From the NCBI GenBank assembly GCA_030019335.1, contig JASEET010000008.1:1-48334 (forward strand): DNA of 48,334 bases, given 5' to 3'. A program made the position numbers and the translations under genes. How positions within the stretch are numbered: the first letter of the stretch is position 1; each line of letters starts with the position of its first letter. Source of the stretch: Candidatus Bathyarchaeia archaeon. Lineage in GTDB: Archaea > Thermoproteota > Bathyarchaeia > Bathyarchaeales > Bathycorpusculaceae. Positions 816-38,345 of this stretch are shown piece by piece. A model generated the notes under the pieces. The model had not been told where the DNA came from. It saw only the letters and a program-made list of their open reading frames with translations, and searched no databases.

Positions 816-2522
816 TTGTCTAGGCATGTAAAGCGTCCAGACGAGAAACTGCTCAAGCAAATTCTTGATTTTTGTAGGCATATTGCGGGCTCCTATCAAA
901 TCACAGCCACATGCATATGTAGCGATTATACCTCAGAATTTTCTAAAGCAAAAACAGTTGTGGAAATCTTGCTTATAATCCGCGATTTTCAACCTCGGTT
1001 AATGAGGTACATAAAAGTTTTGGATGACCGAAACGTCATTGTATTCGCGGTTAACGAGTGGGTTTTTGAAAGGGATGTGGATAGAGGTTTTCTAGGCGAA
1101 GCCTTAGCTGGGAGGATGATTTTCCCATATATCGCCTTAGTGAACGAGGAATATTTGCGTTTCCAAGAAGTTACATTGAAAAAACGTTTAATCCTTGAAC
1201 GTTTGGAAAACCTGGTTTTGGATTTTCCAGAACTCTCCTACGATTTTCGTATAAAGCCAGAATACTTTATGTATGAAACTATGCTAAGCAGGGCACGACT
1301 TTTCCCGCCAATGACTTACAGTGTGCTTAGCTTTATGCGAAAGGGTGTTAAAAAGGGAAACATAGAAGTGGTTATGCGTGGATATGTGGATGCATTAAAG
1401 GAACTAGAAAAAGAAAGTGCAATTACACTTTCAGATGGATACGTAAAAATCTCTAAAAAACTTGTGGGCGAGGTTAAGAGCAGAAAAGTTCGTTTCGTAA
1501 ACCTTTTTAAAACAGCCCAAAGAACCTTATTCACGTCTTTACTCAATATTTTCCCAGCAGTTCTAAATCTCCTTTCACAGAATAGAGAGACATTTCTTAG
1601 ATTCCAAAGAGAAGTCGAAGAAAACTCAAAGCTTATTCATCAACTTGAAGACCCCCGCAGATTTTTATATATTCCTACGGCTCGCGGACTGGTTTCTCTG
1701 GCGAGTAGAATGGATGTTGAAGCCTTTGCAAAAGAGGTGTTTTCTATAAATGAAGGTGCAGAAATTAAGGTTGAGGAGATTGGCGGTGTTCTGAATGATG
1801 TTTATTTGGTTAAGACCTCTGTGGGCAACGAAGAAAGAAAAATTGTTGTTAAGAGGTTTAGAGACTGGTCAAGTTTTAAATGGTTCCCGCTTACTTTGTG
1901 GACTTTTGGAACTAGAACTTTTGCCGTTTTGGGGCACTCAAGACTTGATAGAGAATGCGCTATAAACCAGCTGCTATATTCAAAAGGTTTTGAGGTCCCA
2001 AAGATTCTGCATATAAGCCATGCTGAACGTTTAATTTTCATGGAACATGTGGAAGGCGAAAATCTTGGCAAAGTGATAAAAAGAGTTGTTAACGCAAAAA
2101 ACACCGAGGAAGTGAAGGAAGACCTAGACATCATAAGCAAAGTTGGCGAAAAACTCGCTGAGGTGCATACTCTCGACATAGCTTTAGGCGACACAAAACC
2201 CGAGAACCTAGTGGTTAAGGAGAGCGGTAAAATCTGCATGCTGGATTTTGAACAAGCCTCAAGGAACGGAGACAAGGTTTGGGATATCGCTGAATTTCTG
2301 TATTATGCAGGTCATTTTATTTCACCGCTTGTTGGAACACGTCCCACAGAACTCATTACAAAAGCCTTTATTGAAGGCTATTTAAGGGCTGGAGGAGAAG
2401 TCAAACTTGTAAAAAAGGCTGGAAATCCCAGATACACAAAAGTTTTCAGCATATTCGCTTTTCCACACATAATTTTGACCATTTCGAACATTTGTAGAAA
2501 GGCGAGCAAACTGAAGGAATAA
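816..2522 (+). CDS. Atypical protein-kinase-fold protein with long N-terminal region
   Basis: 568 residues. The C-terminal half has the eukaryotic-like/RIO-Bud32-type kinase landmarks: a nucleotide-binding lysine in IVVKRF (about 346), a hinge-like LIFMEHVEGENL, the catalytic loop LGDTKPENLVV (about 457, D-x-K-P-x-N) and the metal-binding LDFEQAS (about 475) in place of DFG. The N-terminal 300 residues resemble a nucleotidyltransferase-like domain in their early strands (VVEILLIIRDF, NVIVFAVNEWVF) but lack a clear catalytic motif. The frame opens with TTG at 816; a GGGTGAAAGG run abuts it, so the true start is uncertain. It may phosphorylate a protein or small molecule. Substrate unknown. Confidence 0.65.
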   Translation: MSRHVKRPDEKLLKQILDFCRHIAGSYQITATCICSDYTSEFSKAKTVVEILLIIRDFQPRLMRYIKVLDDRNVIVFAVNEWVFERDVDRGFLGEALAGRMIFPYIALVNEEYLRFQEVTLKKRLILERLENLVLDFPELSYDFRIKPEYFMYETMLSRARLFPPMTYSVLSFMRKGVKKGNIEVVMRGYVDALKELEKESAITLSDGYVKISKKLVGEVKSRKVRFVNLFKTAQRTLFTSLLNIFPAVLNLLSQNRETFLRFQREVEENSKLIHQLEDPRRFLYIPTARGLVSLASRMDVEAFAKEVFSINEGAEIKVEEIGGVLNDVYLVKTSVGNEERKIVVKRFRDWSSFKWFPLTLWTFGTRTFAVLGHSRLDRECAINQLLYSKGFEVPKILHISHAERLIFMEHVEGENLGKVIKRVVNAKNTEEVKEDLDIISKVGEKLAEVHTLDIALGDTKPENLVVKESGKICMLDFEQASRNGDKVWDIAEFLYYAGHFISPLVGTRPTELITKAFIEGYLRAGGEVKLVKKAGNPRYTKVFSIFAFPHIILTISNICRKASKLKE

Positions 2523-2531
2523 GCATAGTTA

Positions 2532-2668
2532 ATAGACATTCCCAGACATATTTCCGGTAAAGTTGATGAGATTGCAAAAAGAAAGGCATAACAAGTGAGG
2601 AAACTCTGAAGCAACTGTCAAAGGAAGGCTTAATTCTGAAAAAGATGACAAAAAATAAAGAACCCTAA
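2532..2668 (+). pseudogene. Small frameshifted gene remnant
   Basis: Two short open frames join if one base is added near 2590: the first reads IDIPRHISGKVDEIAKRK, the second GITSEETLKQLSKEGLIL followed by a short lysine-rich tail. Together they look like a helical DNA-binding or antitoxin-like protein of about 45 residues, but no start codon is visible. It lies in the 166-base gap between two genes. Coding character is plausible but modest. Confidence 0.3.
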
Positions 2669-2688
2669 CCAAGCACCCATTCTTTTTT

Positions 2689-3129
2689 TTACGCACGCAT
2701 TATATTTTCCCTCATTAACTCTATGAATTTCCCGAAAAGTCTTTCAAAGAAATCTTTCTTGAGTTGTGAGCCTTTCCCAATACCTGGACATTCATCTGTG
2801 TAGGTAAAAACGTATCTATTATTTCTAAGGTTTTTGAGCTGGAAGGGATAGAATCTGCAGATTAGTGGTCTTATCTCATAGATAGAGCATGAGTTATCTT
2901 TCAGAAAGACGCATTTTCCGTCCTCAGTCTTCCTCATCTGGTGAATGTAGGGTTCAAAACCCTCAATTTTCTCAGCGAATTTATCGAGACCTATTAAAGT
3001 CTTCTTTGATATACGATCAGCCTCGGTCTTCAATAGAAGAATCGACCTAATATTATCTTTAGTATCGCCGCAGCATAGGGCGCATTTCACACATCTAAAA
3101 CAAACATGTTTTGGATACTCAAAGCTCAA
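2689..3129 (-). CDS. YkgJ-family cysteine cluster protein (UPF0153-like)
   Basis: 146 residues with the family's CxxCxxCC signature near the N-terminus (CVKCALCC), followed by a second cysteine set (CVFLKDNSCSIYEIRPLICRFYPF). These cysteines are thought to bind zinc or an iron-sulfur centre. Length fits the family. The frame opens with TTG (LSFEYPKHVC); no strong Shine-Dalgarno is seen. The biochemical role of YkgJ proteins is not settled. Confidence 0.8.
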   Translation of the reverse strand: MSFEYPKHVCFRCVKCALCCGDTKDNIRSILLLKTEADRISKKTLIGLDKFAEKIEGFEPYIHQMRKTEDGKCVFLKDNSCSIYEIRPLICRFYPFQLKNLRNNRYVFTYTDECPGIGKGSQLKKDFFERLFGKFIELMRENIMRA

Positions 3130-3176
3130 GCTAATCTCGCCAGATTATCTTACAAAACATACAAAAGACAGAAAGA

Positions 3177-3311
3177 CTATTTTTTACCTTTCTTATGTCT
3201 TTTAGGAAGCTCAACTTTCTTCTTCTGTTTCCTCTGCATCTTCTTAGCCCTGTTCAATTGCCTATGCTTTTCCCGACCTGCAGCTTTCTCTTTCTTGCTT
3301 TTTTTAGCCAT
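3177..3311 (-). CDS. Very basic 44-residue protein
   Basis: A short gene: ATG at 3311 preceded by a clean GGAGGTC Shine-Dalgarno 5 bases away. The product (MAKKSKKEKAAGREKHRQLN...KKGKK) is almost entirely lysine, arginine, glutamate and glutamine, so it is expected to bind nucleic acid, perhaps rRNA or the ribosome. The two larger plus-strand frames over this region are antisense shadows. No family recognised. Confidence 0.65.
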   Translation of the reverse strand: MAKKSKKEKAAGREKHRQLNRAKKMQRKQKKKVELPKRHKKGKK

Positions 3312-3557
3312 ATTTTGACCTCCACTTTATGGCATAACCACATGATACTTATTAAAAAATATTACTATCCTCTTTAAACTGCACGGAGGGATGCTTTTTT
3401 TTTTTAAACGTCCATTAATACTTTTCCAAAATATTATATCTACCTCTTTTGGAATGGTATTAACATCGGATATTGAGAGTTAATTATTAGGTTTTGTCGT
3501 GTGCGGGGATTCATAACGTATAAGTTAAAGTATTAACTCTTGATATTCACGATAAAA

Positions 3558-3797
3558 ATGAAAGCAAACGCAAAGCTTGACCGCCGAATACTAGTGCTTT
3601 TCCACAGCTTAGGCTTAAGCTGCGTAGGCGGAGCCATATTCCTCCAAATCCTAGTCTTCGTGGATATACTCCAACACGGATACTTCATGGCCGTGGAAAA
3701 CAATCCGGCAATCCTAACATTCGAGATTGTGCTAACAGTCTTCGCCCTTATTTACTTCATATACATATATCAACGCTTCATCCGCTCAATCAAATAG
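3558..3797 (+). CDS. Small two-helix membrane protein
   Basis: 79 residues from the ATG at 3558 (a TTG at 3540 would add six). A basic N-terminus (MKANAKLDRR) is followed by a hydrophobic helix (about 9-35, ILVLFHSLGLSCVGG...) and a second one (about 47-70, ILTFEIVLTVFALIYFIYIY), with a short basic tail. No Shine-Dalgarno is visible, so the mRNA may be leaderless. Function unknown. Confidence 0.6.
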   Translation: MKANAKLDRRILVLFHSLGLSCVGGAIFLQILVFVDILQHGYFMAVENNPAILTFEIVLTVFALIYFIYIYQRFIRSIK

Positions 3798-3927
3798 CCA
3801 TTTTTAAGCATCAAAATTTAAAAAACCCTTTTAGAAAGTCGTTAAATAGCAAAAGAAGAATAGAAAATCGTTTTAAATAAGCTTCCATAGAACTCAATCA
3901 ATAGAATTTTACGTTGAAGGTGGAACG

Positions 3928-4689
3928 ATGAAGAAACTGGAAAAAATCGCCACAATAGTTATCATTTTTACTTTCGTATCTACATTAGTCTGTATCACAA
4001 AAGTACAAGCATCAGCAGAAAACATGGAAACGTTCTATGAAGGGGAAGGTTATCCCGGGCTTTCGATTAACGTTAAGGCTACAAAAGAAACGAACCCTGG
4101 CTTGGACATAAACGTTACCATATGGATTGAGTGCACAGCTAAAAACCTTAGCATCGAATACCTTTATCTTCGCGTTTACGGTTTCAGAGGCGGTCAAGAA
4201 AGGATTTTACTGAAAAATATCACGCATATAGCGGAAAAAATTTTCCTCGATTACGGCAATGTAAGCGAAGGAAACTATACGGTTCATATACCTAATGATG
4301 TTTGGTACAGGACCTACACAGAGTTGCACTTCAAATACGCCATCAAAGAAACGTCCTACGGTCCGTATACTGACGGCTTTACGATGACTGATGTAAAGAA
4401 CGTCTATTTGGAAGAACTTGAAAACACACTTAAAAATTTGAACGAGAGCTATCAACAGTTAAATAATACTTATTGGGAATTAAACAGCACTTTTGAGCAG
4501 CTTAACCAAACTTACTGGGATCTTCATCAAAACTACACTTCCCTGAATCAAACTTACTGGGATCTTAAAGGCAGTATAGGCGGACTTGACACTACGAAGA
4601 ACGTGGCGATTGTTCTAGCGATAACAACTGTTTTCTTTGCAGCTACAACAATCTATCTGATGATGCGGAAACCTAAACAATATTGGTAA
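3928..4689 (+). CDS. Secreted, membrane-anchored protein with a heptad-like repeat stalk
   Basis: 253 residues. Signal peptide: MKKLEK then a hydrophobic core ending near VQASA (about 30). A beta-rich ectodomain with many N-glycosylation sequons (NVT, NLS, NIT, NVS, NYT) follows. Residues about 165-213 carry four near-copies of a unit like LNQTYWDLHQNYTS, which would form an extended coiled stalk. A C-terminal helix (VAIVLAITTVFFAATTIYLMM) plus basic tail anchors it outside the cell. AAGGTGG precedes the ATG and a TTTTAAATAA TATA-like box lies about 60 bases upstream. Family not recognised. Confidence 0.7.
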   Translation: MKKLEKIATIVIIFTFVSTLVCITKVQASAENMETFYEGEGYPGLSINVKATKETNPGLDINVTIWIECTAKNLSIEYLYLRVYGFRGGQERILLKNITHIAEKIFLDYGNVSEGNYTVHIPNDVWYRTYTELHFKYAIKETSYGPYTDGFTMTDVKNVYLEELENTLKNLNESYQQLNNTYWELNSTFEQLNQTYWDLHQNYTSLNQTYWDLKGSIGGLDTTKNVAIVLAITTVFFAATTIYLMMRKPKQYW

Positions 4690-4747
4690 CTCGTTATTCC
4701 CCCTTTATTTTCTTTTTTGATGCTGGACTTATAACATCTAAAAAGTA

Positions 4748-6097
4748 TTATTTCCTGTGCAAGTTCTGAGCTGCGATGAAGGTTAAGCCTCGCTCTGTGA
4801 GGGCTCTGGCTGTTCTGTTTACCGAATCGTGCTTGTCGAGATAATTGATTAGGAGCTTTGGCATCAGTCCTTTTTCGATTATATCCTTTTTGGGGATGAA
4901 GTATTCCAAGATGTCGGACGGGTGTTCTCGGGTTTTCTCAATCTCAGGGGATGCACCTTCATGTTTAGCGCTGATGTTTTTGACATGGTCGGCGATTTCT
5001 AGAAGTTCGTCGAGTCGGTTGTATGGTTGTCTGACAATGCTCTTGTAGGTTTCTACAATGTGGTGTTCGATGCGGGTAATGTCCTCAAAGTCGAAGGCTT
5101 TTCGTATATAGGCTGACAGCTCAATCGTCCTATTGTTTATGGAATTTGAGAGGTTAAAGCCTAAAAGAGGTGTCGTGCCATCGTCTCGACTAAAGAGTTT
5201 CGCGGTCATCAGTGTCCACAAACATGCATAGGGATTGTCATTGCCCAGATAAACTGAAATCTTGAATTCTACGTCAATTCCAAGCTTGTGCAGCCAATAC
5301 CCAAGCATCACAGTGCCCGTGTTTACATTCAACACTTGTCGGACCCCGCACTCAGTGTAATAATGAAGGAACTCGTCGATCCATTTTAGAGCGTATTCGT
5401 TTGGCACTCCAACGCCGCCGAAATAGCCCGTGATTGTTTCGGGTCCTCCCAGATGAACGTTAATGGGCTGACCGTCGGGTCCTAGCATTGTTCCTTTTGT
5501 ATCTAGTGTTTCCACGTAGGAGGCGCCTATGATCTGCATCGCCGCTGCAAACGCGAAGGGCTCATTATCCTCAGCCTGCTCTTTCATGGAGCGGACGCGG
5601 ATGAAGCGACCGGGCATAAGGTCTTGCTGTGCAATCGCCTTTTTTGCCTCCTCTATGAGCCACGGGAAAAAGTTACAAGCACTAATTTCCAAGGTTACAG
5701 CAAAAGACTCATCAAACTTCATGGAATCAGCTTTGTCTCCTAAAATTTTTCTGCGATATTCTGGAATAGTGATAAAGGCTCCTTTATCTCGCTGTTCAAT
5801 AAGCCACTCAAGATTCTTGACGTAAGGCGAATTTTTCGCCCTAAGCCTAGCTATAAGATTCTCGAGTTTACGGGCTTCTCTGGCTTTGCGGTTAATCTCG
5901 TCAACACCACCATATTTCTCAACGATTCTTAACAAACCATTTATAAGGGGGTTATCTTCTCTCAGAAGAAAATCGTTGATTTCCCTAAGGTTTTCATCTT
6001 TTATTCTCAATCTTTCTCTGAGGTCATTCAAAAGTCTGTCCTCCAGATGTTGTATGTTATCCATCTTAAGGTAATTTAAGCGTTTTCGAAGTTTCAC
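4748..6097 (-). CDS. Conserved-looking protein of unknown function, 449 residues
   Basis: A soluble protein. The N-terminal 110 residues are charged helices (LEDRLLNDLRERLRIKDENL). The middle alternates strands and helices with glycine-rich turns (VHLGGPETITGYFGGVGVPN, ECGVRQVLNVNTGTVMLGYW), which suggests an alpha/beta or TIM-barrel enzyme. A C-terminal helical domain follows. Starts GTG at 6097 or ATG at 6064 (MDNIQHLEDR) are both possible; neither has a Shine-Dalgarno. I cannot assign the family. Confidence 0.65.
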   Translation of the reverse strand: MKLRKRLNYLKMDNIQHLEDRLLNDLRERLRIKDENLREINDFLLREDNPLINGLLRIVEKYGGVDEINRKAREARKLENLIARLRAKNSPYVKNLEWLIEQRDKGAFITIPEYRRKILGDKADSMKFDESFAVTLEISACNFFPWLIEEAKKAIAQQDLMPGRFIRVRSMKEQAEDNEPFAFAAAMQIIGASYVETLDTKGTMLGPDGQPINVHLGGPETITGYFGGVGVPNEYALKWIDEFLHYYTECGVRQVLNVNTGTVMLGYWLHKLGIDVEFKISVYLGNDNPYACLWTLMTAKLFSRDDGTTPLLGFNLSNSINNRTIELSAYIRKAFDFEDITRIEHHIVETYKSIVRQPYNRLDELLEIADHVKNISAKHEGASPEIEKTREHPSDILEYFIPKKDIIEKGLMPKLLINYLDKHDSVNRTARALTERGLTFIAAQNLHRK

Positions 6098-6190
6098 AGC
6101 TGTTTAAACGTTTTTGAGAAACGAAACTCCACAATAGCTTATTAACACGCTCTTATTCAACCTGTCTAACTCCTTGTGGAAAAGCTTTCT

Positions 6191-7123
6191 TTACGTCGCT
6201 CTTCCTCTTCTTAACCTCTTTATATACAGATATGCAGCTAAACCAGCCTTTACACCATCACCTAAGCAAGAGGTCAAATTGAATCCGCTACCACAAGTAC
6301 AGTCTCCAGCTGCAAAAACTCCTTCAACATTAGTTTGCTGTCGGCTGTCGACAAGTATGCCACCTTGCTTATGAGTTTCTACTCCGATTTTCTCAACTTT
6401 TAGGACCGTTGGTTCTACTCCCAAAGCGACAAAAATTCCCTCAGTTTGTAATCTCCTTTTTCCGCCAGTTTCTATGTTGTATATTTTTACATTGTTAACG
6501 AGCTCACCATGTTCAATAGCTTCCACTTTATAGCCCTCCATAATTTGTACTCCTTTTCTTTTCAGTTCTTCAACAAGAGAGTTTTCTGCCTCCAACTTCT
6601 CGGAATTTGTAACTAATGTTACGTTGCGAGCTATTTGGGATAAAGTAAGCGCCTCTTGTGCTGCCGTATTTTCTGAACCGACAACGACCACTTCGCATTC
6701 CTTAAAGAATCGACCGTCGCAAATGGCACAGTATGAAATGCCTCTAGCAAGCCAGCTTTCGCCGGGGACATTTAAAAGCTTGCATCTTGCACCTGTAGCT
6801 AGGATTAATACGTCACAAGCGTAGTCTTTTTCCAAAGTTTTCACAATTTTCTTTTCTCTTATTTCCAAGTCGGTTACCTTCTCTCCTACATGGATTTCAA
6901 CTCCATGTCGTTTAGCTTCCTTGACCATTCTTTGAATAAGCTCCGCCCCAGACATCGTTCCAAGAAAACCACGTCTGAGATAGCTCCAAAGCTTGGGAGG
7001 CTTTTCAGCTTCTAAAACGAGAGTTTTGAGTCCCCAAACACCAGTGAAAAGCGCAGCCGAAATGCCAGCGAAACCAGCCCCAACAATAATAACGTCATGA
7101 TCTTTCAAACCTAACAACCCCAT
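6191..7123 (-). CDS. trxB: Thioredoxin-reductase-like FAD/NAD(P) oxidoreductase
   Basis: 310 residues, the usual TrxB length. FAD-binding GAGFAG at 15-20, redox-active CAICDG (Cys132, Cys135), a second Rossmann motif VVVGSENTAAQEA, and the C-terminal FAD signature VFAAGDC are all present. It should pass electrons from NAD(P)H through FAD to a disulfide partner. Unusual points: the active site is CAIC, not the common CATC, and the nucleotide motif is GSENTA where GGGDSA is usual, so partner or cofactor preference may differ. No thioredoxin gene is adjacent. Confidence 0.85.
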   Translation of the reverse strand: MGLLGLKDHDVIIVGAGFAGISAALFTGVWGLKTLVLEAEKPPKLWSYLRRGFLGTMSGAELIQRMVKEAKRHGVEIHVGEKVTDLEIREKKIVKTLEKDYACDVLILATGARCKLLNVPGESWLARGISYCAICDGRFFKECEVVVVGSENTAAQEALTLSQIARNVTLVTNSEKLEAENSLVEELKRKGVQIMEGYKVEAIEHGELVNNVKIYNIETGGKRRLQTEGIFVALGVEPTVLKVEKIGVETHKQGGILVDSRQQTNVEGVFAAGDCTCGSGFNLTSCLGDGVKAGLAAYLYIKRLRRGRAT

Positions 7124-7214
7124 TTGTCAATTTCTACTTCAAAGCTTAAATAATAAACGCTGGCGATGTCTCCCGCAATTCCTCTTTTTATCTTCACTTT
7201 AACGGAATCAAGTT

Positions 7215-7601
7215 TTAGCCTATAAAGAGGTCTACAATTAGTCCTAAGATCTTGTTTTTCATATTTAACAGAGTTTCTATCGTTTTCTTTCCTTTTTGCG
7301 TTAGTGTATAGACTCTTTTCCTCTGGCCCCGTTCTCCTTTAATTAGCTCATCTCTTTCAAGACGGTATAAGCAGGAGTAAACTGTTCCTGAACTAATGAG
7401 CATATTAAACCGTTTATGAACGTAGGAAATGATGTCGTAACCGCTCAATGAAACATTCCTTAGCTTCAACAAAATTAACACATCCAGAAAATCCACGACG
7501 ATTCTTCTATACAGCTTCATCAAGGTTTCAGATTCCAAATCGGAAACACCCGTAGAAGATACTTCTAGAAGATATTTACATATAGTCTTTTCGCTTTTCA
7601 T
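7215..7601 (-). CDS. PadR-family transcriptional regulator
   Basis: 128 residues. The winged-helix core is LSGYDIISYVHKRFNMLISS, then TVYSCLYRLERDELIKGERG and the wing KRVYTLTQKGKK, as in PadR proteins, preceded by an about 40-residue N-terminal extension. The start ATG lies inside an inverted repeat (7595-7628) shared with the divergent small gene at 7653, which suggests autoregulation and control of that neighbour. The ligand is unknown. Confidence 0.85.
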   Translation of the reverse strand: MKSEKTICKYLLEVSSTGVSDLESETLMKLYRRIVVDFLDVLILLKLRNVSLSGYDIISYVHKRFNMLISSGTVYSCLYRLERDELIKGERGQRKRVYTLTQKGKKTIETLLNMKNKILGLIVDLFIG

Positions 7602-7628
7602 CTATAAATATTATATTTCTGATGAAAA
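7595..7628. promoter_or_regulatory. Palindromic operator/promoter between padR-like gene and small secreted protein
   Basis: Perfect 8-bp arms TTTTCATC (7595-7602) and GATGAAAA (7621-7628) flank an 18-bp AT core, TATAAATATTATA, that can serve as a TATA box in both directions. The left arm contains the start codon of the PadR gene. A regulator dimer bound here would block both divergent promoters. Confidence 0.5.
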
Positions 7629-7652
7629 ACAAAAAGGAGGTGAGAGAACAAA

Positions 7653-7856
7653 ATGAATGTGAAAATTACACTCTTGGCACTTTTGGTCATTTTGGCTGCG
7701 ACAACTATATTTGCTACAATCACTGCTACTTTCAACGAAGCACCTTCAATAACCAGCATTAAGACAGACCTTGATGAAGAAATCTCTGATTACCTAGCTT
7801 TGTGTAATTATACGCAACCAGAAGGGGACCCTAGAGACGGCGATTGGCCTCAGTGA
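7653..7856 (+). CDS. Small secreted or membrane-anchored protein
   Basis: 67 residues. The ATG is preceded by AAGGAGGTGAG, a near-complete match to the 16S anti-Shine-Dalgarno. The N-terminal helix (VKITLLALLVILAATTIFAT) is a signal peptide or anchor; the rest is acidic with one cysteine and ends PEGDPRDGDWPQ. It is divergent from the PadR regulator and shares its palindromic control region, so it may be the target of that regulator. Function unknown. Confidence 0.65.
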   Translation: MNVKITLLALLVILAATTIFATITATFNEAPSITSIKTDLDEEISDYLALCNYTQPEGDPRDGDWPQ

Positions 7857-7911
7857 CAAGCAGTTTTAAATTTTAAAAGTCAATAAATACATTTCTAATA
7901 CGGAGATTTAG

Positions 7912-9027
7912 ATGAGTAGGACTCTTGACCTCTTAGATATCAAGATACTAAAACAGTTAGGTAAGCACGGACCGAGAAACATCTCCTACATTGCGCGAAA
8001 GCTAGGCATTCCTATTGAAACGACACGAAAAAGGGTAAAACGCCTAATTTCCCAATTTTTTATAACATTCCATACAAATGTTTATCATACAAATCTTGGA
8101 CTTAAGAAAGCATTCGTATTTGCGGATGCTCTTCATGGTTATGAAGAAGTGGTTTTTAAATGTTTGAAAGCTAATGATTTCTGGCTTTATGTAGGTCGAT
8201 ATTATGGTAGGTGTGAGGGCTGCTATGGAATTTACGGGATTCCGAAAGAGCATACGAAAGCATTTGAGGAATTTATACATAAACTAGAAGAAGCCGAGGT
8301 TGTAAGAAATTTACAATTGTTTTGGTCAACATGTTTATATTCGGTAAACTTGACGGAGAACTGGTTTGACCCTGAATCAAAAACCTGGATTTTTCCTTGG
8401 GATAAATGGATAGAAGAGATTCCAACCAAAGGAACGGAGCTACCTCACACCCTAACGGACCCTAAGGATTTTCTAATCAAAGCTGACTACATTGACATTC
8501 TTATCTTGGCGAAACTGGAGGTTAATTCAGCCGCCAGTTTCCGAGACATCGCAAAAATTCTCAACGTTTCTCCTGAGGTAGTATCGTATCATTTTAAAAA
8601 TCACATCTTAAAGCGAGGTTTGCTTGAACAATCACGGGTTTTCTTTCTTCGTTTTGATAAGACAACTTCGGATTTTTTCGTTTTCTTTTTTAAGTTTGAT
8701 GACAAAGATAAAGTGGCTCGATTTGCATCGTCACTGTTGGGTAAACCATTTGTACATGCTTTAGGGAAAATTCTTAACGAAAACTCTCTAATCGTACACG
8801 TATATCTCCCCAGAAAAGAATTTAGAAAATTTACACAGAGCTTGTCGGAGCTTATTAGGAGAGGGCTTTTACAAACTTATGAGTACGTAATAGAGGATTT
8901 CGATTTGAGAGCTGCTCAAACAATATCCTACGAGTATTTTAAGGCTGGGTCATGGGTTTATAATCACAAAAAACATCTAAGGAACCTTCAAAATCTAGCA
9001 CGAAATGCTAGGCTGGGGAAGTTCTAA
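7912..9027 (+). CDS. Tandem Lrp/AsnC-type helix-turn-helix regulator
   Basis: 371 residues. The first HTH is at about 5-45 (LLDIKILKQLGKHGPRNISY, then IARKLGIPIETTRKRVKRL) and a second at about 190-235 (ADYIDILILAKLEVNSAASF, then IAKILNVSPEVVSYHFKNHI). Each is followed by an alpha/beta segment. The duplicated architecture suggests a DNA-binding regulator working as a pseudo-dimer. GGAG precedes the ATG. The genes it controls cannot be deduced. Confidence 0.7.
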   Translation: MSRTLDLLDIKILKQLGKHGPRNISYIARKLGIPIETTRKRVKRLISQFFITFHTNVYHTNLGLKKAFVFADALHGYEEVVFKCLKANDFWLYVGRYYGRCEGCYGIYGIPKEHTKAFEEFIHKLEEAEVVRNLQLFWSTCLYSVNLTENWFDPESKTWIFPWDKWIEEIPTKGTELPHTLTDPKDFLIKADYIDILILAKLEVNSAASFRDIAKILNVSPEVVSYHFKNHILKRGLLEQSRVFFLRFDKTTSDFFVFFFKFDDKDKVARFASSLLGKPFVHALGKILNENSLIVHVYLPRKEFRKFTQSLSELIRRGLLQTYEYVIEDFDLRAAQTISYEYFKAGSWVYNHKKHLRNLQNLARNARLGKF

Positions 9028-9042
9028 GTATAATGCTTACCA

Positions 9043-9219
9043 TTATTCTTCGGTGATTGTGACCTTCTCAGCTTCCTTCAGCCATGGAATCCTAGTTGGC
9101 TCCTTAGAAAGCTCATTTAAGATGTCTCTCTCGATGTCTTCATTCGCCATTTCAGCACTCTCTTCAACAAGAGAAATCACAATTACAGCCTTTTTAACCG
9201 TGTTCTTCACCTCAGTCAT
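9043..9219 (-). CDS. Small charged protein, 58 residues
   Basis: ATG at 9219; the product begins MTEVKNTVKKAVIVISLVEE and ends KEAEKVTITEE. It is a soluble acidic helix-rich protein. The long plus-strand frame across this region is its antisense shadow: it is serine and phenylalanine rich, as expected of reversed helical coding DNA. Only a weak GGTTAAAG precedes the start. No family recognised. Confidence 0.55.
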   Translation of the reverse strand: MTEVKNTVKKAVIVISLVEESAEMANEDIERDILNELSKEPTRIPWLKEAEKVTITEE

Positions 9220-9285
9220 AACTTTAACCTACATTAAGAAAAACATTTTCCTTTCTTCTTCGTTTATATCACATAGTGTGCATGT

Positions 9286-9444
9286 TCATGAGGGTTTCAG
9301 GTACCGGGCGACAACTGCTACGCACCGGGGGCAATGCACGTGTAGCCCATAAGGATAATCAGGCCAGCTAGCGAACTCAGCGCCTTTCTTTGGAAAAACA
9401 TGCCCACAACGAGAACAGCATGAAATACATTCATATGCTCCATT
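9286..9444 (-). pseudogene. Zinc-ribbon gene remnant without a start codon
   Basis: An open frame with two CxxC pairs: ECISCCSRCGHVFPKKG, then HVHCPRCVAVVARYLKPS. The spacing fits a zinc ribbon. No ATG, GTG or TTG lies in the frame before the first cysteines, and its 5' end overlaps the plus-strand gene at 9420, so it is probably a truncated relic. Confidence 0.3.
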
Positions 9445-9581
9445 TCAAAAATGGCGAGTTTGACGTGGCTACAGCCACCACTGTAGAAGAAGTCAAAAAA
9501 ATTGTAGCCGCTGGCTTTGAAAAAATCGACGAAATAAAAGGAATCCACATCTTCAGAAGGCCAAAAAGATTTAGCATTTAA
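9420..9581 (+). CDS. Small protein of unknown function, 53 residues
   Basis: From the ATG at 9420 it reads MKYIHMLHFKNGEFDVATAT and ends IHIFRRPKRFSI; a TTG at 9390 would extend it by ten residues. A decayed homologue lies at 617-745, sharing the FDVATA segment, which supports this being a real family with at least two copies in the genome. It looks like a small alpha/beta fold. Function unknown. Confidence 0.55.
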   Translation: MKYIHMLHFKNGEFDVATATTVEEVKKIVAAGFEKIDEIKGIHIFRRPKRFSI

Positions 9582-9651
9582 ACGCAGGATTTGACGTTTT
9601 AAAGCTTAAATGATATAAAATGTATGGTTAACTAAAAGGTGTGGGAAAAAT

Positions 9652-11130
9652 ATGTTTAAACCTGAGGGAATTATGTCAGCCTTGGTTACACCTTTTACGG
9701 ATGATGGCAAAGCTGTTGATGAGGAAAGACTGCGAGCTTTAGTAAGAAAATGTATCGAGTTGGGCGTTCACGGGGTTGTTCCATGCGGTACAACAGGCGA
9801 GTTTGTGAACTTAACAGTTGAAGAGAAAAAACGTGTTATTGATATCGTGATAGATGAGGTTAATGGCAAGGTTCCAGTAGTTGCTGGAAGTGGGGCAAGC
9901 GGAACGGACCAAGCGTTAGAGATGACAAGGTATGCTAAGGATGCTGGTGTTGATGCTGCTTTGATCGTTACACCGTTTTATTTGAAGCCGACAGACCGCG
10001 GAATCTATGAACACTATTTCACCATAGCAAACGAAGTTGACCTGCCCATGATTCTCTACAACATTCCACAATGTACAGGTGTACAGCTTACATGGCAGAT
10101 GGTTGAGGATTTGGCTCAGATTCGAAACATTGTTGGTTTGAAGGACAGCAGCGGACAGCTGGGGTATATATTAGCTGTGCTGGAAAAAGTTAGAGACAAA
10201 ATCAATGTCATGTGCGGGCACGACGAAGTTGTTGTTGCAGCCCTAGCTGCTGGATGCTCCGGAGCAATCCTCGCAAGCGCCAACGTGATACCAGACATTT
10301 GGGTTCAAATTTATAATCATGTAAAGAAAGGCGAGCTGCAAAAGGCCCGTGAGCTGCAGTATAAAATACAAAAGATGGCACGTATCATTGCTGGAAGCGG
10401 AGCGGTAGGCACAAAAGCAGCCTTAAACATGATGAAAATCAAGGTTGGACCAGTTAGAAAGCCATTAAGCGTAGGCGGAGAACTAACCTATGAGGCAAGG
10501 GAAGAACTGCGAATAGAATTAGAGAAAATAGGAAATATAAAGCCGAAACCCATAACCTTTGAAATTGGAGAAAAACCATTAGAAGAACGATTCAAAGCCA
10601 TCGACATAACACCAGAAATCATACGAGACTTCAACATGCGGGTGGGCGAGGCCCTAGCGGGACAAGGCGCAGAAGTAGCTCACATAGACCTTCTTATCGG
10701 AAAGAAAGATGGTCCATTGGGCGAGGCCTTCGCAAAGGCTAAATCCGCACCGACACCCGGACATGAACCGTTACTAGCAATTTTGGAGCCAAACTTAACT
10801 GTTAAGCCTGTAACCTTGATAGTTCCAACCGTCACGATTAGGAGTATGCGTCAGGCTAGCATGGTTTATGGTCCAGCACAAACGGCAGTGGCAAAGGCTG
10901 TTATTGACAGCGTTGCAGATGGAATAATTCCAAGGGAGGCTGCTGAAGAGCTAATAATCATCGCAAATGTTTTTGTCCATCCAACAGCCATTGACAGGCA
11001 AAGAGTATACATAAACAATTACAAGGCTATGCGGCATGCCATTCGTAAAGCAATAGAAGGAAGACCAACAATAGACGAACTAATAGAAAACAAGGATAGA
11101 TCGAAACATCCTTTCAAGTACACACCTTAG
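9652..11130 (+). CDS. DapA/NAL-family aldolase fused to formaldehyde-activating enzyme (Fae) domain
   Basis: 492 residues in two domains. Residues 1-300 are a class I pyruvate-type aldolase of the DHDPS/NAL family: GTTGEF (about 46), the catalytic tyrosine in YNIPQCTG (about 136) and the Schiff-base lysine in VGLKDSSG (about 164). Residues about 318-492 match Fae along their length: MRVGEALAGQGAEVAHIDLL with the conserved histidine (about 344), then GHEPLLAILEPNLTVKPVTL, RQASMVYGPAQTAVAKA and SKHPF. Fae joins formaldehyde to tetrahydromethanopterin as methylene-H4MPT. Fusion to a pyruvate aldolase suggests channelled release or fixation of formaldehyde, for example with 2-keto-4-hydroxybutyrate as substrate; that is inference. 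AGGTGTGGG precedes the ATG and a GATATAAAA TATA box lies about 45 bases upstream. Confidence 0.88.
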   Translation: MFKPEGIMSALVTPFTDDGKAVDEERLRALVRKCIELGVHGVVPCGTTGEFVNLTVEEKKRVIDIVIDEVNGKVPVVAGSGASGTDQALEMTRYAKDAGVDAALIVTPFYLKPTDRGIYEHYFTIANEVDLPMILYNIPQCTGVQLTWQMVEDLAQIRNIVGLKDSSGQLGYILAVLEKVRDKINVMCGHDEVVVAALAAGCSGAILASANVIPDIWVQIYNHVKKGELQKARELQYKIQKMARIIAGSGAVGTKAALNMMKIKVGPVRKPLSVGGELTYEAREELRIELEKIGNIKPKPITFEIGEKPLEERFKAIDITPEIIRDFNMRVGEALAGQGAEVAHIDLLIGKKDGPLGEAFAKAKSAPTPGHEPLLAILEPNLTVKPVTLIVPTVTIRSMRQASMVYGPAQTAVAKAVIDSVADGIIPREAAEELIIIANVFVHPTAIDRQRVYINNYKAMRHAIRKAIEGRPTIDELIENKDRSKHPFKYTP

Positions 11131-11140
11131 TGATTGAGAT

Positions 11141-11926
11141 TTGACAACTCAAAAGATAAGGGAAGATGATTACGTACTCTTCTATTTAAGCCAGCGAAAA
11201 ACATACATGGTTAAAGTTGAAAAGGGCAAAACCTTTCACACACATAAAGGCTTCATAAAATTTGACGACTTAATCGGGAAAGAATACGGCTCTAAGATTC
11301 TAAGCAGTTTAGGCGTGGAATTTGTGGCGTTAAAACCTTTGCTTCGCGATTACATTATCAAGTCTGTGCGGAAAACTCAGATAACATACCCAAAGGACAT
11401 AGCCTTAATAGTGATGTTCAGCGGAATAGGTCCGGGCAGCCGCGTTGTAGAAGCTGGAACGGGTACAGGTGCACTAACCACAGCCTTAGCCCACTTTGTG
11501 AAATCAAACGGCAGAGTCTACAGCTATGAAATCAGAGAAGAGTTTCTCAAAACCGCAAGGAAAAACCTGAAGCGTGCAGGCTTAATCGACTTTGTAGAAT
11601 TGAAGAATAAAGATGTCTCCGTGGGCATAGATGAAAGCGATGTTGATGCCGTCATACTGGATTTGGCAACTCCATGGCTCATTGTCTCCCATGCTTATGC
11701 TGCCCTAAAGCCTTGCGGAACCATAGTCTCCTTCAGTCCAACAATAGACCAAGTTGTCAAAACCGTTGAAGCCTTAAAAGAAAACAACTTCGTGGATATA
11801 GAAACTGTTGAGTGCTTAATGCGTAGAATGCAAACTGAAAGAGGAAAAACTAGACCCCAAACCTTAATGACTGGTCACACAGGCTACATAACATTCGCCC
11901 GCAAAGCAATGAAACCTAAAGCATAA
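11141..11926 (+). CDS. trmI: tRNA (adenine-N1)-methyltransferase, TrmI type
   Basis: 261 residues. A short N-terminal beta domain (DDYVLFYLSQRKTYMVKVEK) is followed by a class I SAM-binding domain: RVVEAGTGTGALTTALA (motif I), YSYEIREEFLKTARKNL, and the active-site strand VDAVILDLATPW. Archaeal TrmI methylates A57/A58 in the T loop of tRNA. It begins with TTG 10 bases after the aldolase-Fae stop, so the two are probably cotranscribed. Confidence 0.88.
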   Translation: MTTQKIREDDYVLFYLSQRKTYMVKVEKGKTFHTHKGFIKFDDLIGKEYGSKILSSLGVEFVALKPLLRDYIIKSVRKTQITYPKDIALIVMFSGIGPGSRVVEAGTGTGALTTALAHFVKSNGRVYSYEIREEFLKTARKNLKRAGLIDFVELKNKDVSVGIDESDVDAVILDLATPWLIVSHAYAALKPCGTIVSFSPTIDQVVKTVEALKENNFVDIETVECLMRRMQTERGKTRPQTLMTGHTGYITFARKAMKPKA

Positions 11927-30150: not shown

Positions 30151-32100
30151 GCCTTGGTTAAGGATAGCGCTGGCTGGAAATGCAAATGTTGGAAAAAGCG
30201 TGATTTTTAACCAGCTTACAAGCTTGAATCAAATTGTTGGAAATTGGCCTGGAAAAACCGTTGAAAGGGCTGAAGGAACCCTATTTTTTAAAGGCTATAC
30301 CATCCGTATAATTGACTTGCCCGGAATATATTCGCTTTCCACTTTCTCCATGGATGAAATTGTTTCACGAGATTACATAGCAGTTGAAAAGCCCGATATT
30401 ATAATTAATGTTGTAGATGCTTCAGCACTAGAACGCAACTTGTATTTTACGCTTCAACTCTTGGAACTTGGAGCATCAATAGTAATTGATTTAAATCAGA
30501 TTGATTTTGCAGCAAAGAAAGGTATAAGAATTGATGTTGAGAAGCTTTCTGAAGCTTTAGGAGTACCCGTCGTCCCAACGGTTGCAATTACTGGAAGTGG
30601 AATAAACGAACTTCTCTCAACAGTCATAACAGTAACAAGTGGAGAGAGGAAGCTCAAGCCGCTAAAAGTCAGATACGGCAAAGAAATCGAGAAAAGAGTA
30701 CAAGCAATTGAAAAGCTTATCAGCACCAAACTCCCGCAACTTTGCACGGTTTATCCCGCAAGATGGGTTGCGATTAAACTTCTAGAAAGAGATACGGATG
30801 TTGCTGGAAAACTGAAGAACTATAAAAATGGAAAGGAAATTTTGGATTATGCAGAGAAATTAGCAACAGAACTTGAAAAAATACACGGTGAACCTTCACC
30901 AGTTGTTATAGCCTCGGAAAGGTATGGACTTGCAAACAAAATAGCCAAAGAGGTTACAGCCATCGAAGCTCCTCCTAGAATAAGCCTAGAACAGAAACTG
31001 GATGCCATAACTACACATAAAATTCTCGGATATCCAATTTTAACGGTTGCCGTAGTTTCCATGTTTGCGTTGATTTTTGTTGGAGGAAACTTTCTATCTG
31101 CCGGTTTAGAGTTCTTGTTTGAAAACTTATCTATGTTTATAGAATGGGGGCTTTCTACATTTTTGCCTAGAATTGTGGTGGATTTAATTAACAATGGAAT
31201 TTTGGCTGGCGTAGTTGCGGGGATAACGATAGCTTTGCCATACATTGTGCCGTTCTATATTATTCTGGCATTACTTGAGGATAGTGGTTACCTACCACGT
31301 GCAGCCTTTTTGATGGATAATCTTATGCACAAAATAGGGTTACATGGCAAGGCATTTATTCCATTAATGCTGGGCTATGGATGCAGCGTCCCTGCTGCAT
31401 TGGCTGCAGGATAATGGAGACAGAGCGTGAACGTTTCTTAGCTGGTTTTGTGGTAGTTCTGATTCCATGCGCTGCCAGAACAGTTGTTATTTTGGGTTTA
31501 GTTGGCAGATTTGTAGGTTTACATGCAGCTTTGGCTTTATACGCTTTCGACTTAGTTCTTGTTTTCGTCTTAGGCAGAATAGCGTTTAAAGTTCTGCCCG
31601 GAGAACCGGTTGGGTTAATTATGGAGATGTCGCCGTATAGAAAACCTCTAGCCAAAAATGTACTGGTGAAAACTTGGGGTCGAACAAAGGATTTCATTTA
31701 TATAGCCTTTCCAATAATTATTGCTGGAAGCGTAGCCCTAGAAGCCTTACACCTTTCCGGGCTCATGAACTACATAGTTAACGCCGCAAACCCACTTATT
31801 GGCGGCTTGCTAGGCCTTCCATCAGAAACTGGAATCCCATTAATTTTTGGGATTCTACGCAAAGAATTAACACTCATTCTGCTTTCGGAACTTATTCAGC
31901 TAGAATCTTTAACCGTTATTCAGATGATTGTTTTTTCGCTGGTTACCATGATTTATATTCCATGCATCGTAACCATTGCTGCATGCGCAAGGGAATTTGG
32001 ATGGAAAAAAGCCTTAGCAATAACTGTTATCGACATAGCACTTGCTTTTTTCTTAGGTGGATTAGCCTACCGACTGCTATCATTAGTAATGGCAACATAA
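30143..32100 (+). pseudogene. feoB: Ferrous iron transporter FeoB, one frameshift
   Basis: About 650 residues if repaired. The cytoplasmic G domain has G1 GNANVGKS (11-18), G3 DLPGIYSL and DLNQID (a variant NKxD). The membrane part has the gate motifs PYIVPFYIILALLEDSGYLP and GYGCSVPAALAA. There the frame breaks (near 31410; one A missing in GCAGGATAATGG) and resumes as RIMETERERFLAGFVVVLIP through further helices to the stop at 32100. It imports ferrous iron at the membrane. Given intact flanks, a base-calling error is as likely as decay. Confidence 0.85.
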
Positions 32101-32110
32101 CAGAAAATAG

Positions 32111-32593
32111 CTACAACTTCAAAACATCTCCAGCACCGTCCATCCAGCAAAACAACGAGCCCTCCGTTAAAGTTGCGGAAAACGTAAATAAGCACCAACG
32201 GACATTTGTCAAAAAGTAGCCGAAAACTTCCAAATAGTGGCCGAGGTGAGGTAGCCTGGTTAGCCTATGGGCCTGTGGAGCCCGGCGCCCGGGTTCAAAT
32301 CCCGGCCTCGGCCCTCTCTGATGGCAACCTACGGTTTGGATTTCTTCCCTTTTTATGAAAGCAGCTTGATTTTGGCTGATTTGTTGGTTTAGAGCTTGGA
32401 GAAGGCTTAGAAGTTGCTGTGTCAACGGGCTTGGGACGGTCCCAGGACGGTCCTCGATACATTGTTGGGACGGTCCTAATAGAAGACTTGTTAGGTAGTC
32501 GTTTAAACCCATGTTTGCGGCTCGCGCCTTGTTTCGTAGCAGGTCTGCGACTTCGGTTTTTAGGCATACGCCCGTCATTCCTGGTTTAGGCAT
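32111..32593 (-). CDS. Ribbon-helix-helix protein whose frame runs through the tRNA attachment site
   Basis: The N-terminal part is an RHH DNA-binding domain (MTGVCLKTEVADLLRNKARA, ANMGLNDYLTSLLLG) followed by a helical segment (LTQQLLSLLQALNQQISQNQ). From about residue 93 on, the frame reads the antisense of tRNA-His (RGPRPGFEPGRRAP) and host DNA. So the native C-terminus was probably altered by integration, and in the excised circle the gene would end differently. AAGGTGA precedes the ATG at 32593. The start overlaps the end of the upstream gene. Confidence 0.55.
   Translation of the reverse strand: MPKPGMTGVCLKTEVADLLRNKARAANMGLNDYLTSLLLGPSQQCIEDRPGTVPSPLTQQLLSLLQALNQQISQNQAAFIKREEIQTVGCHQRGPRPGFEPGRRAPQAHRLTRLPHLGHYLEVFGYFLTNVRWCLFTFSATLTEGSLFCWMDGAGDVLKL
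32239..32313 (+). tRNA. tRNA-His (anticodon GTG)
   Basis: A cloverleaf can be drawn: acceptor GCCGAGG/CCTCGGC, D stem AGG/CCT with GG in the loop, anticodon stem TGGGC/GCCCG with loop CTGTGGA (anticodon GTG), T stem CCGGG/CCCGG with loop TTCAAAT. The encoded extra G-1 (32239) faces C73 (32313), the tRNA-His identity pair, which settles the isotype. No CCA is encoded and there is no intron. Its 3' end borders the integrated element. Confidence 0.93.
32434..32476. repeat. Three copies of the palindrome GGACGGTCC
   Basis: Copies at 32434-32442, 32445-32453 and 32468-32476, each symmetrical about a central G. They lie inside the RHH gene, so an autoregulatory operator or iteron is possible; low-complexity coding repeats are the alternative. 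Confidence 0.5.
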
Positions 32594-32763
32594 GCTTTTT
32601 CACCTTCCTCAATTTCAGTAATTTCTTCATACCTAAAACTTTCTATAGCTTGGTCGATTTTGCTCGGCAGTTCCATGTTTACAATGTGGTCAGTGATTTC
32701 TTTGACATCGTTTAAGTTTTTGGCTTCAACGACAAGAACCAATTCCACCAAATACTTAGGCAT
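32575..32763 (-). CDS. Small acidic protein of the element
   Basis: 62 residues from ATG 32763; AAGGAG lies 9 bases before it, which favours it over the TTG at 32772. MPKYLVELVLVVEAKNLNDV begins with a beta strand and continues as an alpha/beta fold with an acidic C-terminus. It overlaps the RHH gene start by 19 bases, suggesting coupled translation. Family unknown. Confidence 0.6.
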   Translation of the reverse strand: MPKYLVELVLVVEAKNLNDVKEITDHIVNMELPSKIDQAIESFRYEEITEIEEGEKACLNQE

Positions 32764-32827
32764 GTTTTCCAACTCCTTTTGTCGATCTCTTTGCGCTCCC
32801 GTTCCCGGAGCCAGGGGGATGCGCCCT

Positions 32828-32845
32828 CCTGCCAGGCGTGGCAGG
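32828..32845. other. Perfect hairpin between element genes
   Basis: CCTGCCA-GGCG-TGGCAGG, a 7-bp GC-rich stem with a tetraloop, followed on the plus strand by TTTTG. It lies between two minus-strand genes and could act as a processing site or an attenuator. A second short hairpin (CTCC..GGAG) lies about 30 bases to the left. Confidence 0.5.
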
Positions 32846-32907
32846 TTTTGTGGATGTTGATTGCCTTAACAGAAAAAGAGGGAAATGAAGGCGTGTTGTT
32901 TCGTATT

Positions 32908-33231
32908 TTAGTCTGGTCTGCGAAGGGCTACGATGAATCCGCCCTTGCTTTCTGAGTTGACTGTGATTTCGACTGGTATGTCTTCGCCCTTTGGAAGCCC
33001 AAGAGTTTCGTAAACGTTTTTGCTTAGGCGTAAAAAGCCATACTTGTTAATCTTGCCTTCAAAAGTGATGGGCATTGTTTCGCTTGGGTTTTGGGTCACA
33101 TCAGCCGTCTGGTTTTCAGAACTCTTCTTTTTAGCCAAATATTTCGCCTCCTTTTCCTTCTTTTCGAGCTCTATTATCCTCTGGGCGACTTCGCTTGGAA
33201 CGTCGCCCACGTAGTCGCGGCTTCTACTCAT
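32908..33231 (-). CDS. Element protein with AbrB-like C-terminal beta domain
   Basis: 107 residues from the ATG at 33231, which follows GGAGAGTGAGG; the longer frame to 33333 would read through the terminator hairpin and is rejected. A charged coiled-coil region (VPSEVAQRIIELEKKEKEAK) leads to a compact beta domain (KINKYGFLRLSKNVYETLGL, PVEITVNSESKGGFIVALRR). That end resembles swapped-hairpin (AbrB) folds. Possibly a DNA-binding regulator. A similar small beta protein is at 38346. Confidence 0.55.
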   Translation of the reverse strand: MSRSRDYVGDVPSEVAQRIIELEKKEKEAKYLAKKKSSENQTADVTQNPSETMPITFEGKINKYGFLRLSKNVYETLGLPKGEDIPVEITVNSESKGGFIVALRRPD

Positions 33232-33299
33232 TTCCTCACTCTCCTTTCGGTTTACGCCCGCCAGGCTTTCGCCCAGGGCTAATTTTCGGGGCGACATAG

Positions 33300-33331
33300 A
33301 AAAAGGGGGAGAAGGCAGGCTTTTGCCCGCC
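33300..33331 (-). terminator. Hairpin terminator downstream of the candidate RNA
   Basis: On the minus strand GGCGGGC-AAAA-GCCTGCC (7 pairs, one G-T), followed by TTCTCCCCCTTTTTC. A near copy of the hairpin core (AGGCTTTCGCCC) lies at 33263-33274. It closes the GC-rich block that starts at 33720. Confidence 0.5.
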
Positions 33332-33720
33332 ATTATAGGAGGGTTTTAGGCGACTTTCGGACTGCCACAGGTCCTACTTGTCTGAGACATTTGTAGGCAT
33401 ACCCTTGCCCGTCTCGAAACATTGAATCTACGTTTGACAATCGCTTTGGGGTCGCTTACTTCAATCCCTAAGGACTCTCGTGAAGCTGGCCAAAGTGTCC
33501 ACCCGTCTGGTTGTTACTCGCTTAAACCCGTAGGTCTTCACCGCCTCGCAACTCTTATTATGGATTCACGGGTGGACGTGCGCAATGCCTAAGAAGTCAG
33601 TCTGCGGGTCCTCTCGCTCGTGGGCTGGTCCGCCGACGTCATCGCCGGGGCCCGCTAACCCGCCGCTGGCTTTAGCCTACGGGACGGCGAGGTTCGGCTC
33701 GGGTCCCCCGTTATCCGTCC
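33332..33720 (-). ncRNA. Candidate structured RNA of the element, about 390-420 nt
   Basis: No frame over 60 codons in either strand, yet GC content is far above the flanks. On the minus strand a TATA box (33741-33748) lies about 25 bases before GGACGG (33720-33715), which pairs with CCGTCC (33687-33682) around an inner CGAG/CTCG hairpin. Other helices: a 10-bp perfect stem GTCCACCCGT (33577-33568) with ACGGGTGGAC (33506-33497), and CCTAC/GTAGG with GTC/GAC (33373-33397). A GTGAAG/CTTCAC pairing (33541/33485) would cross the 10-bp stem as a pseudoknot. It ends at a hairpin terminator. It matches no RNA family I know; it could also be the long leader of the operon below. Confidence 0.55.
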
Positions 33721-33740
33721 GCTGGGCTAAAAAACATCAA

Positions 33741-33748
33741 TTTATAAT
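33741..33748 (-). promoter_or_regulatory. TATA box for the candidate RNA
   Basis: Minus strand ATTATAAA, preceded by GGGGTA as a BRE-like element. The predicted start at about 33719 coincides with the GGACGG that forms the first helix of the RNA. Confidence 0.5.
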
Positions 33749-34259
33749 TACCCCTAAGTAATAGAGAGGGAAAAAGCTTAAAATCAGTTTGATTTTTAAA
33801 AACGGCTTGTTTTTAGCAAAGCTTTTATTTTTTGAGTAAAGCCCGACTTCACGCCGAGGTGTGAAATTTATCTTTTGAAAACTTGGGAACTCACATGGAA
33901 GTTAGGCAAATTTTTATAAGGCTTGATTTTTAGGCATGGGCGGATGTTTATATAGAACTGATGTTTTTGGAGAGTTTAACATGGAATTAGCGGATTTTTA
34001 GGTTTTTTATGTGAAAGTTATGTTGGAAATTTAAGTCTTAGATTTCACATGAAAATGTTGACAAATTAATGTTGCTTTATATACTAATGCGGGGGTGAAC
34101 TTTTTTTCCATGTATCTATATGAACCCCTTTGAAAAGCAAACTGAAAAAAGCTTCGTTTTTAAAAAGGAGCCTCAATCAAGCTTTTCTCCGAAACAGGGA
34201 TATTTGGCTCCAAATAGGTTTTAAGCCTAACGTGTAAACAGTTTGTTGAGAGAAAGCTT
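33749..34259 (+). other. AT-rich control region without genes
   Basis: No gene seen. Two strong plus-strand TATA boxes, TTTATATA at 33947-33954 and 34076-34083, each with purine-rich sequence before it, could drive the small gene at 34260. A GATTTTTA word recurs (near 33791, 33923 and 33995). An origin of replication is possible given the AT richness beside a GC-rich RNA, but no iterons were found. Confidence 0.4.
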
Positions 34260-34388
34260 TTGTCTGATCGTTCTGGTGGTAGCCGAAGGCCGAGGCTTTT
34301 TGACAGGCCTGAATGTAAGAACTGCGTTTTTAAGGGTGGCAGTTACTGCTGGAACCAGTGCCCATACAACATATGGCGAAGATATTAG
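34260..34388 (+). CDS. Tiny four-cysteine protein
   Basis: 42 residues from TTG 34260 (after GAGAGAAAG). A basic N-terminus (SDRSGGSRRPRLFDRP) is followed by ECKNCVFKGGSYCWNQCPYN: C-x2-C and C-x3-C, a probable zinc knuckle. It converges on another tiny Cys-rich gene with adjacent stop codons (34388/34389). Such proteins are common in archaeal viruses and plasmids. Confidence 0.5.
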   Translation: MSDRSGGSRRPRLFDRPECKNCVFKGGSYCWNQCPYNIWRRY

Positions 34389-34541: not shown

Positions 34542-34606
34542 TCGATACCACAGAAGAAAGTTTGAGGGTTACGCTTTAACACGTTTCGGTCCCAGAATCA
34601 TGTATT

Positions 34607-34662: not shown

Positions 34663-34699
34663 TATCTTTAGAAACCTAAGTTGACGCTACAGGAGAAAG

Positions 34700-35873: not shown

Positions 35874-35877
35874 TCAC

Positions 35878-36978: not shown

Positions 36979-36980
36979 AT

Positions 36981-38312: not shown

Positions 38313-38345
38313 ATCGTTTTCTACATATTTGCGAATGTTTCATTT

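Follow-up and report, generated by a model that had tools for sequence, protein, structure and literature searches.

The window, that is, the whole analysed stretch of 48,334 nucleotides from a contig of a Bathyarchaeia archaeon, carries on its forward strand one reading frame that joins a pyruvate aldolase to a formaldehyde-activating enzyme (Fae). The frame starts with ATG and has no internal stop codons. In the frame that was read, the opposite strand contains numerous stops. The features of the gene are listed below, with residue conservation counted over 46 aligned rows of fusion proteins.

9652–11130, + strand: aldolase-Fae fusion gene, a single ORF of 492 amino acids with full-length relatives
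9661–10521, + strand: class I pyruvate aldolase (DHDPS/NAL) domain, residues 4–290 (PF00701; best PDB relative 2yxg)
9790–9795, + strand: Thr47-Thr48 of the GTTGE carboxylate-binding motif (Thr47 in 45/46 rows, Thr48 in 46/46)
10057–10059, + strand: Tyr136, corresponding to DapA Tyr133 (46/46; aligned with E. coli DapA)
10072–10074, + strand: Cys141, at the place of DapA Arg138 in the alignment
10141–10143, + strand: Lys164, the Schiff-base lysine, corresponding to DapA Lys161 (46/46)
10522–10635, + strand: linker of 38 residues, near-constant in length among relatives
10642–11115, + strand: Fae domain, residues 331–488 (PF08714; TIGR03126; homologue 1y5y/1y60)
10681–10683, + strand: His344, the Fae active-site histidine, in an EVAHIDL motif also found in 1y5y (44/46)

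A preliminary description of this locus had recognized a complete DapA/NAL-type aldolase domain followed by a complete Fae domain with its active-site histidine, and profile searches agreed with it for both halves. The aldolase half matched Pfam PF00701 (DHDPS) with an E-value of 6e-79 and 265 bits against a cut-off of 22, and its best PDB relative, 2yxg, is a DHDPS. The Fae half matched Pfam PF08714 (E-value 4e-63, 213 bits, cut-off 27) and the NCBIfam model one_C_fae, TIGR03126 (3.5e-66, 222 bits, cut-off 118), and its solved homologue is 1y5y/1y60. Both Pfam profiles were covered almost end to end by the protein. The positions given earlier for Lys164, Tyr136, and His344 were correct, and these residues were conserved in 44 to 46 of the rows. 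Loss of catalytic residues from one domain, named at that time as a finding that would speak against the reading, was not observed, Lys164 and His344 being retained in 46 and 44 of the 46 rows, respectively. A pentameric assembly has been reported for Fae, and DHDPS enzymes typically form tetramers.

Tyr110 of the aldolase half was also present in all 46 rows. Arginine was found in none of them at the position of DapA Arg138, which binds the aspartate-semialdehyde carboxylate; Cys, Ala, Val, or Leu stood there instead. When the aldolase half was aligned with E. coli DapA, NanA, YagE, and YjhH, segments of the GEF, CGxD, and SAN types were common to the fusion and YagE/YjhH, and its active-site segments were closer to these keto-deoxy-acid aldolases than to DapA. 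To our knowledge, the substrate of an aldolase of the DHDPS superfamily cannot be deduced from sequence.

Among 84,980 species genomes scanned, 47 loci were found, nearly all titled Bathyarchaeota, the majority of which were full-length fusions with 53–96% identity. The search for other proteins with DHDPS and Fae domains, proposed in the preliminary description, found the fusion in 47 of 161 Bathyarchaeia genomes; when 384 genomes were sampled from the phylum, 19 hits were obtained at an E-value of 1e-80, none of them outside the class. The fusion was uninterrupted on the single-contig chromosomes CP070679, CP070754, CP070730, CP070649, CP070749, CP070683, CP070765, and CP070835. Its linker had 38–40 residues in every row but one, and the aldolase domains of the fusions formed one clade (support 97/94), outside which lay stand-alone DHDPS proteins of the same class and the four E. 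coli enzymes, the latter on long branches. The constant linker, the single-contig loci, and the single aldolase clade together point to one fusion event that was maintained afterwards. The gene contexts of the stand-alone DHDPS relatives (36–44% identity) were varied and uninformative. The data came mostly from metagenome-assembled genomes, which would leave room for an assembly join of two genes, and separate genes in relatives together with such a join had been named beforehand as evidence against a true fusion. However, none of the loci examined had two separate neighbouring genes in place of the fusion, and the identical junction recurred in many independent assemblies, single-contig chromosomes among them, so that an assembly join was rejected as practically out of the question.

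Several copies were incomplete. The fusion was interrupted by a stop at codon 449 in L033 and by several stops in L046 and G127, where X449, the partner gene described below, was broken as well; these copies may reflect decay or sequencing error. The fusion ran into a stretch of N in L044 and was located at a contig end in L023/L049. L042 carried two tandem aldolase-Fae fusions (6782–8179 and 8181–9686), the first of which was shortened and had lost the Fae catalytic histidine, which the second retained.

The genes surrounding the fusion in the window are as follows.

4748–6040, − strand: X449, a TIM-barrel partner gene with no Pfam or NCBIfam model, identified by neighbour counts and divergent from the fusion in most relatives
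6191–9027, both strands: three genes between X449 and the fusion (gene calls, Pfam), namely
6191–7123, − strand: thioredoxin-reductase-like gene
7215–7601, − strand: PadR gene
7912–9027, + strand: AsnC-type double-HTH regulator gene
11141–11926, + strand: TrmI-type tRNA methyltransferase gene (Pfam; neighbour comparison)

X449 was the most constant neighbour of the fusion, being found at 33 of the 46 loci examined. It was mostly divergent from the fusion, but shared its strand in L017–L019, where it lay upstream, and in L041, where it lay downstream, and it overlapped the fusion by 4 nt in L137 (fusion, 5143–6636; X449, 6633–7937). The intervening three-gene set was absent between X449 and the fusion in the other loci compared. 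The true start of X449 in the window is uncertain, with a possible GTG start at 6097 and relatives that begin about 19 residues later. In L027, L028, and L042, the gene directly upstream of the fusion encoded Y312 (310 amino acids) in place of X449, and the two proteins are distant homologues (hhalign, 88%, E-value 3e-6).

In the 161-genome set, X449 occurred in 32 genomes and Y312, counted as present at an identity of at least 60%, in 10, all of which carried the fusion. One or the other, and never both, was thus present in 42 of the 47 fusion genomes and in none of the 114 genomes without the fusion; the genomes are mostly metagenome-assembled, absence calls depend on their completeness, and the associations ignore shared ancestry. 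The five fusion genomes with neither protein all belonged to one family (f20). A small number of genomes, some carrying the fusion and some lacking it, had weaker relatives of Y312 (41–49%). Because X449 or Y312 almost always occurs with the fusion, this TIM-barrel partner points to a multi-enzyme pathway.

Attempts to name the partner failed. For X449, neither Pfam nor NCBIfam gave a significant match, and a sequence search of the PDB gave no convincing relative. The predicted structures, which were models of moderate confidence, were TIM barrels (pLDDT 74 for X449 and 84 for Y312), and Foldseek retrieved only generic TIM barrels for both; the best for Y312 were class II aldolases, 2-methylisocitrate lyase, and the U32 protein Mk0906, with TM of about 0.45. 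Bacterial relatives of Y312 are labelled 'U32 family peptidase' in RefSeq, and one of them, in Thermomicrobium, is encoded next to a member of the mandelate-racemase family and a gene of a sugar ABC transporter. Y312-like proteins with 42–48% identity were also found in L115, L116, and L117, in catabolic-looking clusters where the fusion was not adjacent; their neighbours were Ldh_2 dehydrogenase, aldehyde:ferredoxin oxidoreductase (AOR)-like, and creatininase-like genes in L115 and L116, and ABC transporter and creatininase-like genes in L117. This uncharacterised partner family is the most surprising element of the system; neither it nor the missing DapA arginine had been remarked on in the preliminary description.

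The TrmI-type tRNA methyltransferase was the downstream neighbour in 25 loci and is probably merely co-transcribed with the fusion. At one place, represented by L126 and L033, a UxaA-type dehydratase pair lay head-to-head with the fusion and AOR was close by; AOR was near the fusion in L137 too. The L126 stretch 2501–10607 (G081:C10), about 8 kb, contained a broken fusion, the dehydratase pair, a ferredoxin, AOR, Y312, and an inositol-1-phosphate synthase-like gene. The idea that UxaA dehydratase generally catalyses the step before the fusion was rejected, since it was adjacent at this locus only and the two showed no association when genomes were compared (p 0.23).

Other parts of this genome (G000) were also noted. 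A second Fae was encoded at L001 1225–2682 (G000:C11) as a Fae-HPS fusion, preceded by about 90 extra N-terminal residues that are helix-turn-helix-like (ISGTAKLLKIHRDTLYAWLKEF) and had no Pfam match. L129 5159–6598 (G000:C3) encoded a threonine-synthase-like PLP enzyme (PALP) of 479 amino acids with a C-terminal PadR domain, and ThrC-family matches of similar size were present in other fusion genomes without a canonical ThrC. Positions 32000–48334 of the window, which contain genes for ParB-like and DNA methyltransferase-like proteins and one for a long repetitive tail-like protein (45778–48213), could represent an integrated element.

The known substrate of Fae is formaldehyde, so that the aldolase fused to it would most simply make or use formaldehyde, and for a pyruvate aldolase the substrate would then be 4-hydroxy-2-oxobutanoate (HOB). 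Lys164 of the aldolase half would form a Schiff base with pyruvate or a 2-keto acid, this half would interconvert HOB and pyruvate plus formaldehyde, and the Fae half would interconvert formaldehyde and methylene-tetrahydromethanopterin (methylene-H4MPT). X449, or its substitute Y312, would act in the same pathway, probably on a C4 precursor of HOB. We infer the substrate, the direction, channelling, and the role of X449 from these comparisons, and we give a bifunctional HOB aldolase-Fae that mostly cleaves, with X449/Y312 in the same pathway, a probability of about 0.4. The intact catalytic residues of both halves, the missing DapA arginine, the YagE/YjhH-like active-site segments, and the lack of a detectable aspartate-semialdehyde dehydrogenase in this genome speak for this reading. 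The chemistry is plausible for the fusion because E. coli members of the DHDPS family are reported to perform it promiscuously: YagE in vitro and NanA in vivo converted HOB to pyruvate and formaldehyde (PMC12709889). An E. coli strain with seven pyruvate aldolases deleted has been used to halt HOB breakdown (PMC13279387).

The most likely direction would be cleavage of HOB to pyruvate and formaldehyde; given HOB chemistry, cleavage is favoured over synthesis by about two to one. Fae pulls formaldehyde-releasing reactions, and its domain here would trap the toxic formaldehyde and draw the retro-aldol step forward, as in archaeal Fae-HPS. This pull and the catabolic company of the Y312 relatives favour cleavage, as do a scavenging host and the location of AOR genes close to the fusion in L126 and in L137. 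HisD, a control unrelated to the fusion, was detected in 8 of the 47 fusion genomes versus 83 of the 114 others; the fusion genomes appear to be mostly auxotrophs, fitting a scavenging, catabolic setting.

The same chemistry may run in reverse, with formaldehyde from methylene-H4MPT and pyruvate giving HOB and a transaminase giving homoserine, a natural version of the synthetic cycle that would replace aspartate kinase, aspartate-semialdehyde dehydrogenase (ASD), and homoserine dehydrogenase. In L124 (G002), the fusion, homoserine kinase (thrB), and threonine synthase (thrC) lie in a row, and neither ASD nor homoserine dehydrogenase was detected in that genome. With shared ancestry ignored, homoserine dehydrogenase was present in 6 of the 47 fusion genomes versus 92 of the 114 others, in 5 of 10 versus 61 of 69 ThrB-positive genomes (p 0.009), and in 1 of 39 versus 17 of 31 HisD-negative genomes. 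However, HisD was missing from the fusion genomes almost as often as homoserine dehydrogenase, so that general auxotrophy explains most of this anticorrelation, and most fusion genomes, including this one, lack ThrB and canonical ThrC and would have no use of homoserine for threonine. The differences within the HisD-negative and the ThrB-positive genomes persist after this control. The synthesis direction would also be uphill against Fae. A homoserine bypass as the general role was therefore rejected, most of the fusion genomes being general amino-acid auxotrophs, and we keep homoserine synthesis as a live but rather improbable rival; the synthetic route operates in E. coli (PMC8879981).

An aldolase for keto-deoxy sugar acids that releases glyceraldehyde or glycolaldehyde, with Fae as an independent trap and a structural or regulatory fusion, is unlikely, if still a contender. 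The YagE/YjhH-like active-site segments and the sugar-acid dehydratase adjoining the fusion in L126/L033 are in its favour, but the constant linker, the single clade, and both sites intact over a long divergence suggest a joint function, and the genome already encodes a second Fae in the form of Fae-HPS. A DapA (4-hydroxy-tetrahydrodipicolinate synthase) carrying a passenger Fae would be the outcome of automatic annotation, since the dapA equivalog model TIGR00674 scored 246 bits, above its cut-off of 206, and NCBIfam would thus mislabel the protein. This score is outweighed by the absence of the Arg138 equivalent in all rows and by the lack of a detectable ASD (no match to TIGR00978) in this genome, whose stated completeness is 100%, so that the DapA substrate could not come from aspartate; this assignment was rejected as very improbable. 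Ketopantoate synthesis from 2-ketoisovalerate and methylene-H4MPT in place of PanB is formally the same reaction type, but the genome has its own PanB (322 bits), and this substitution was rejected as more improbable still.

These results suggest that C1 and C3/C4 metabolism are linked in Bathyarchaeia in a way not described before; these archaea abound in sediments, and their carbon metabolism is under debate. If the HOB aldolase reading is true, the fusion would connect the H4MPT C1 pathway directly with the C3/C4 part of central metabolism and would be the natural equivalent of a reaction known until now as promiscuous or engineered. We propose only tentatively that a natural, dedicated HOB aldolase-Fae and X449/Y312 form an undescribed pathway connecting C4 acids, pyruvate, and methylene-H4MPT; in some lineages, those with a fusion-thrB-thrC operon, this pathway would replace the aspartate route as the source of homoserine and threonine. 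The fusion and a TIM-barrel family without a Pfam model offer a concrete two-protein system.

The preliminary description knew of no pyruvate aldolase fused to Fae, and no description of a DHDPS-Fae fusion was found in the non-subscription literature searched. Among known proteins, the partner resembles TIM barrels annotated as 'U32 family peptidase', as Y312-like proteins bear this label and Foldseek finds Mk0906, but it has no Pfam U32 match, and X449 has an extra N-terminal helical domain. The aldolase half shares the fold, the Schiff-base lysine, the tyrosine, and the Thr-Thr pair with DapA, from which it differs in lacking Arg138 and in a host genome without a detectable aspartate-semialdehyde supply. 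YagE/YjhH and NanA of E. coli belong to the same superfamily and have the Lys/Tyr/GxxGE set, whereas the fusion aldolases form a separate clade, the E. coli enzymes lack a Fae domain, and the HOB activity of YagE and NanA is promiscuous. In the synthetic homoserine cycle, which has an HOB aldolase step (He et al. 2020, as described in PMC8879981), pyruvate and formaldehyde are likewise joined to HOB; that cycle is engineered and formaldehyde-fed, whereas the fusion is natural and has its own formaldehyde-handling domain. The closest parallel is the archaeal Fae-HPS, in which Fae likewise has a fused aldol-type partner that produces or consumes formaldehyde, but there Fae is N-terminal to HPS, whereas here it is C-terminal to a Schiff-base pyruvate aldolase. 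Because the HPS (OMPdecase-family) domain that Pfam detects in the L001 protein is absent from the 492-residue fusion, the latter is not a member of the Fae-HPS kind, but it would act in the same manner, as an aldolase coupled to a formaldehyde trap.
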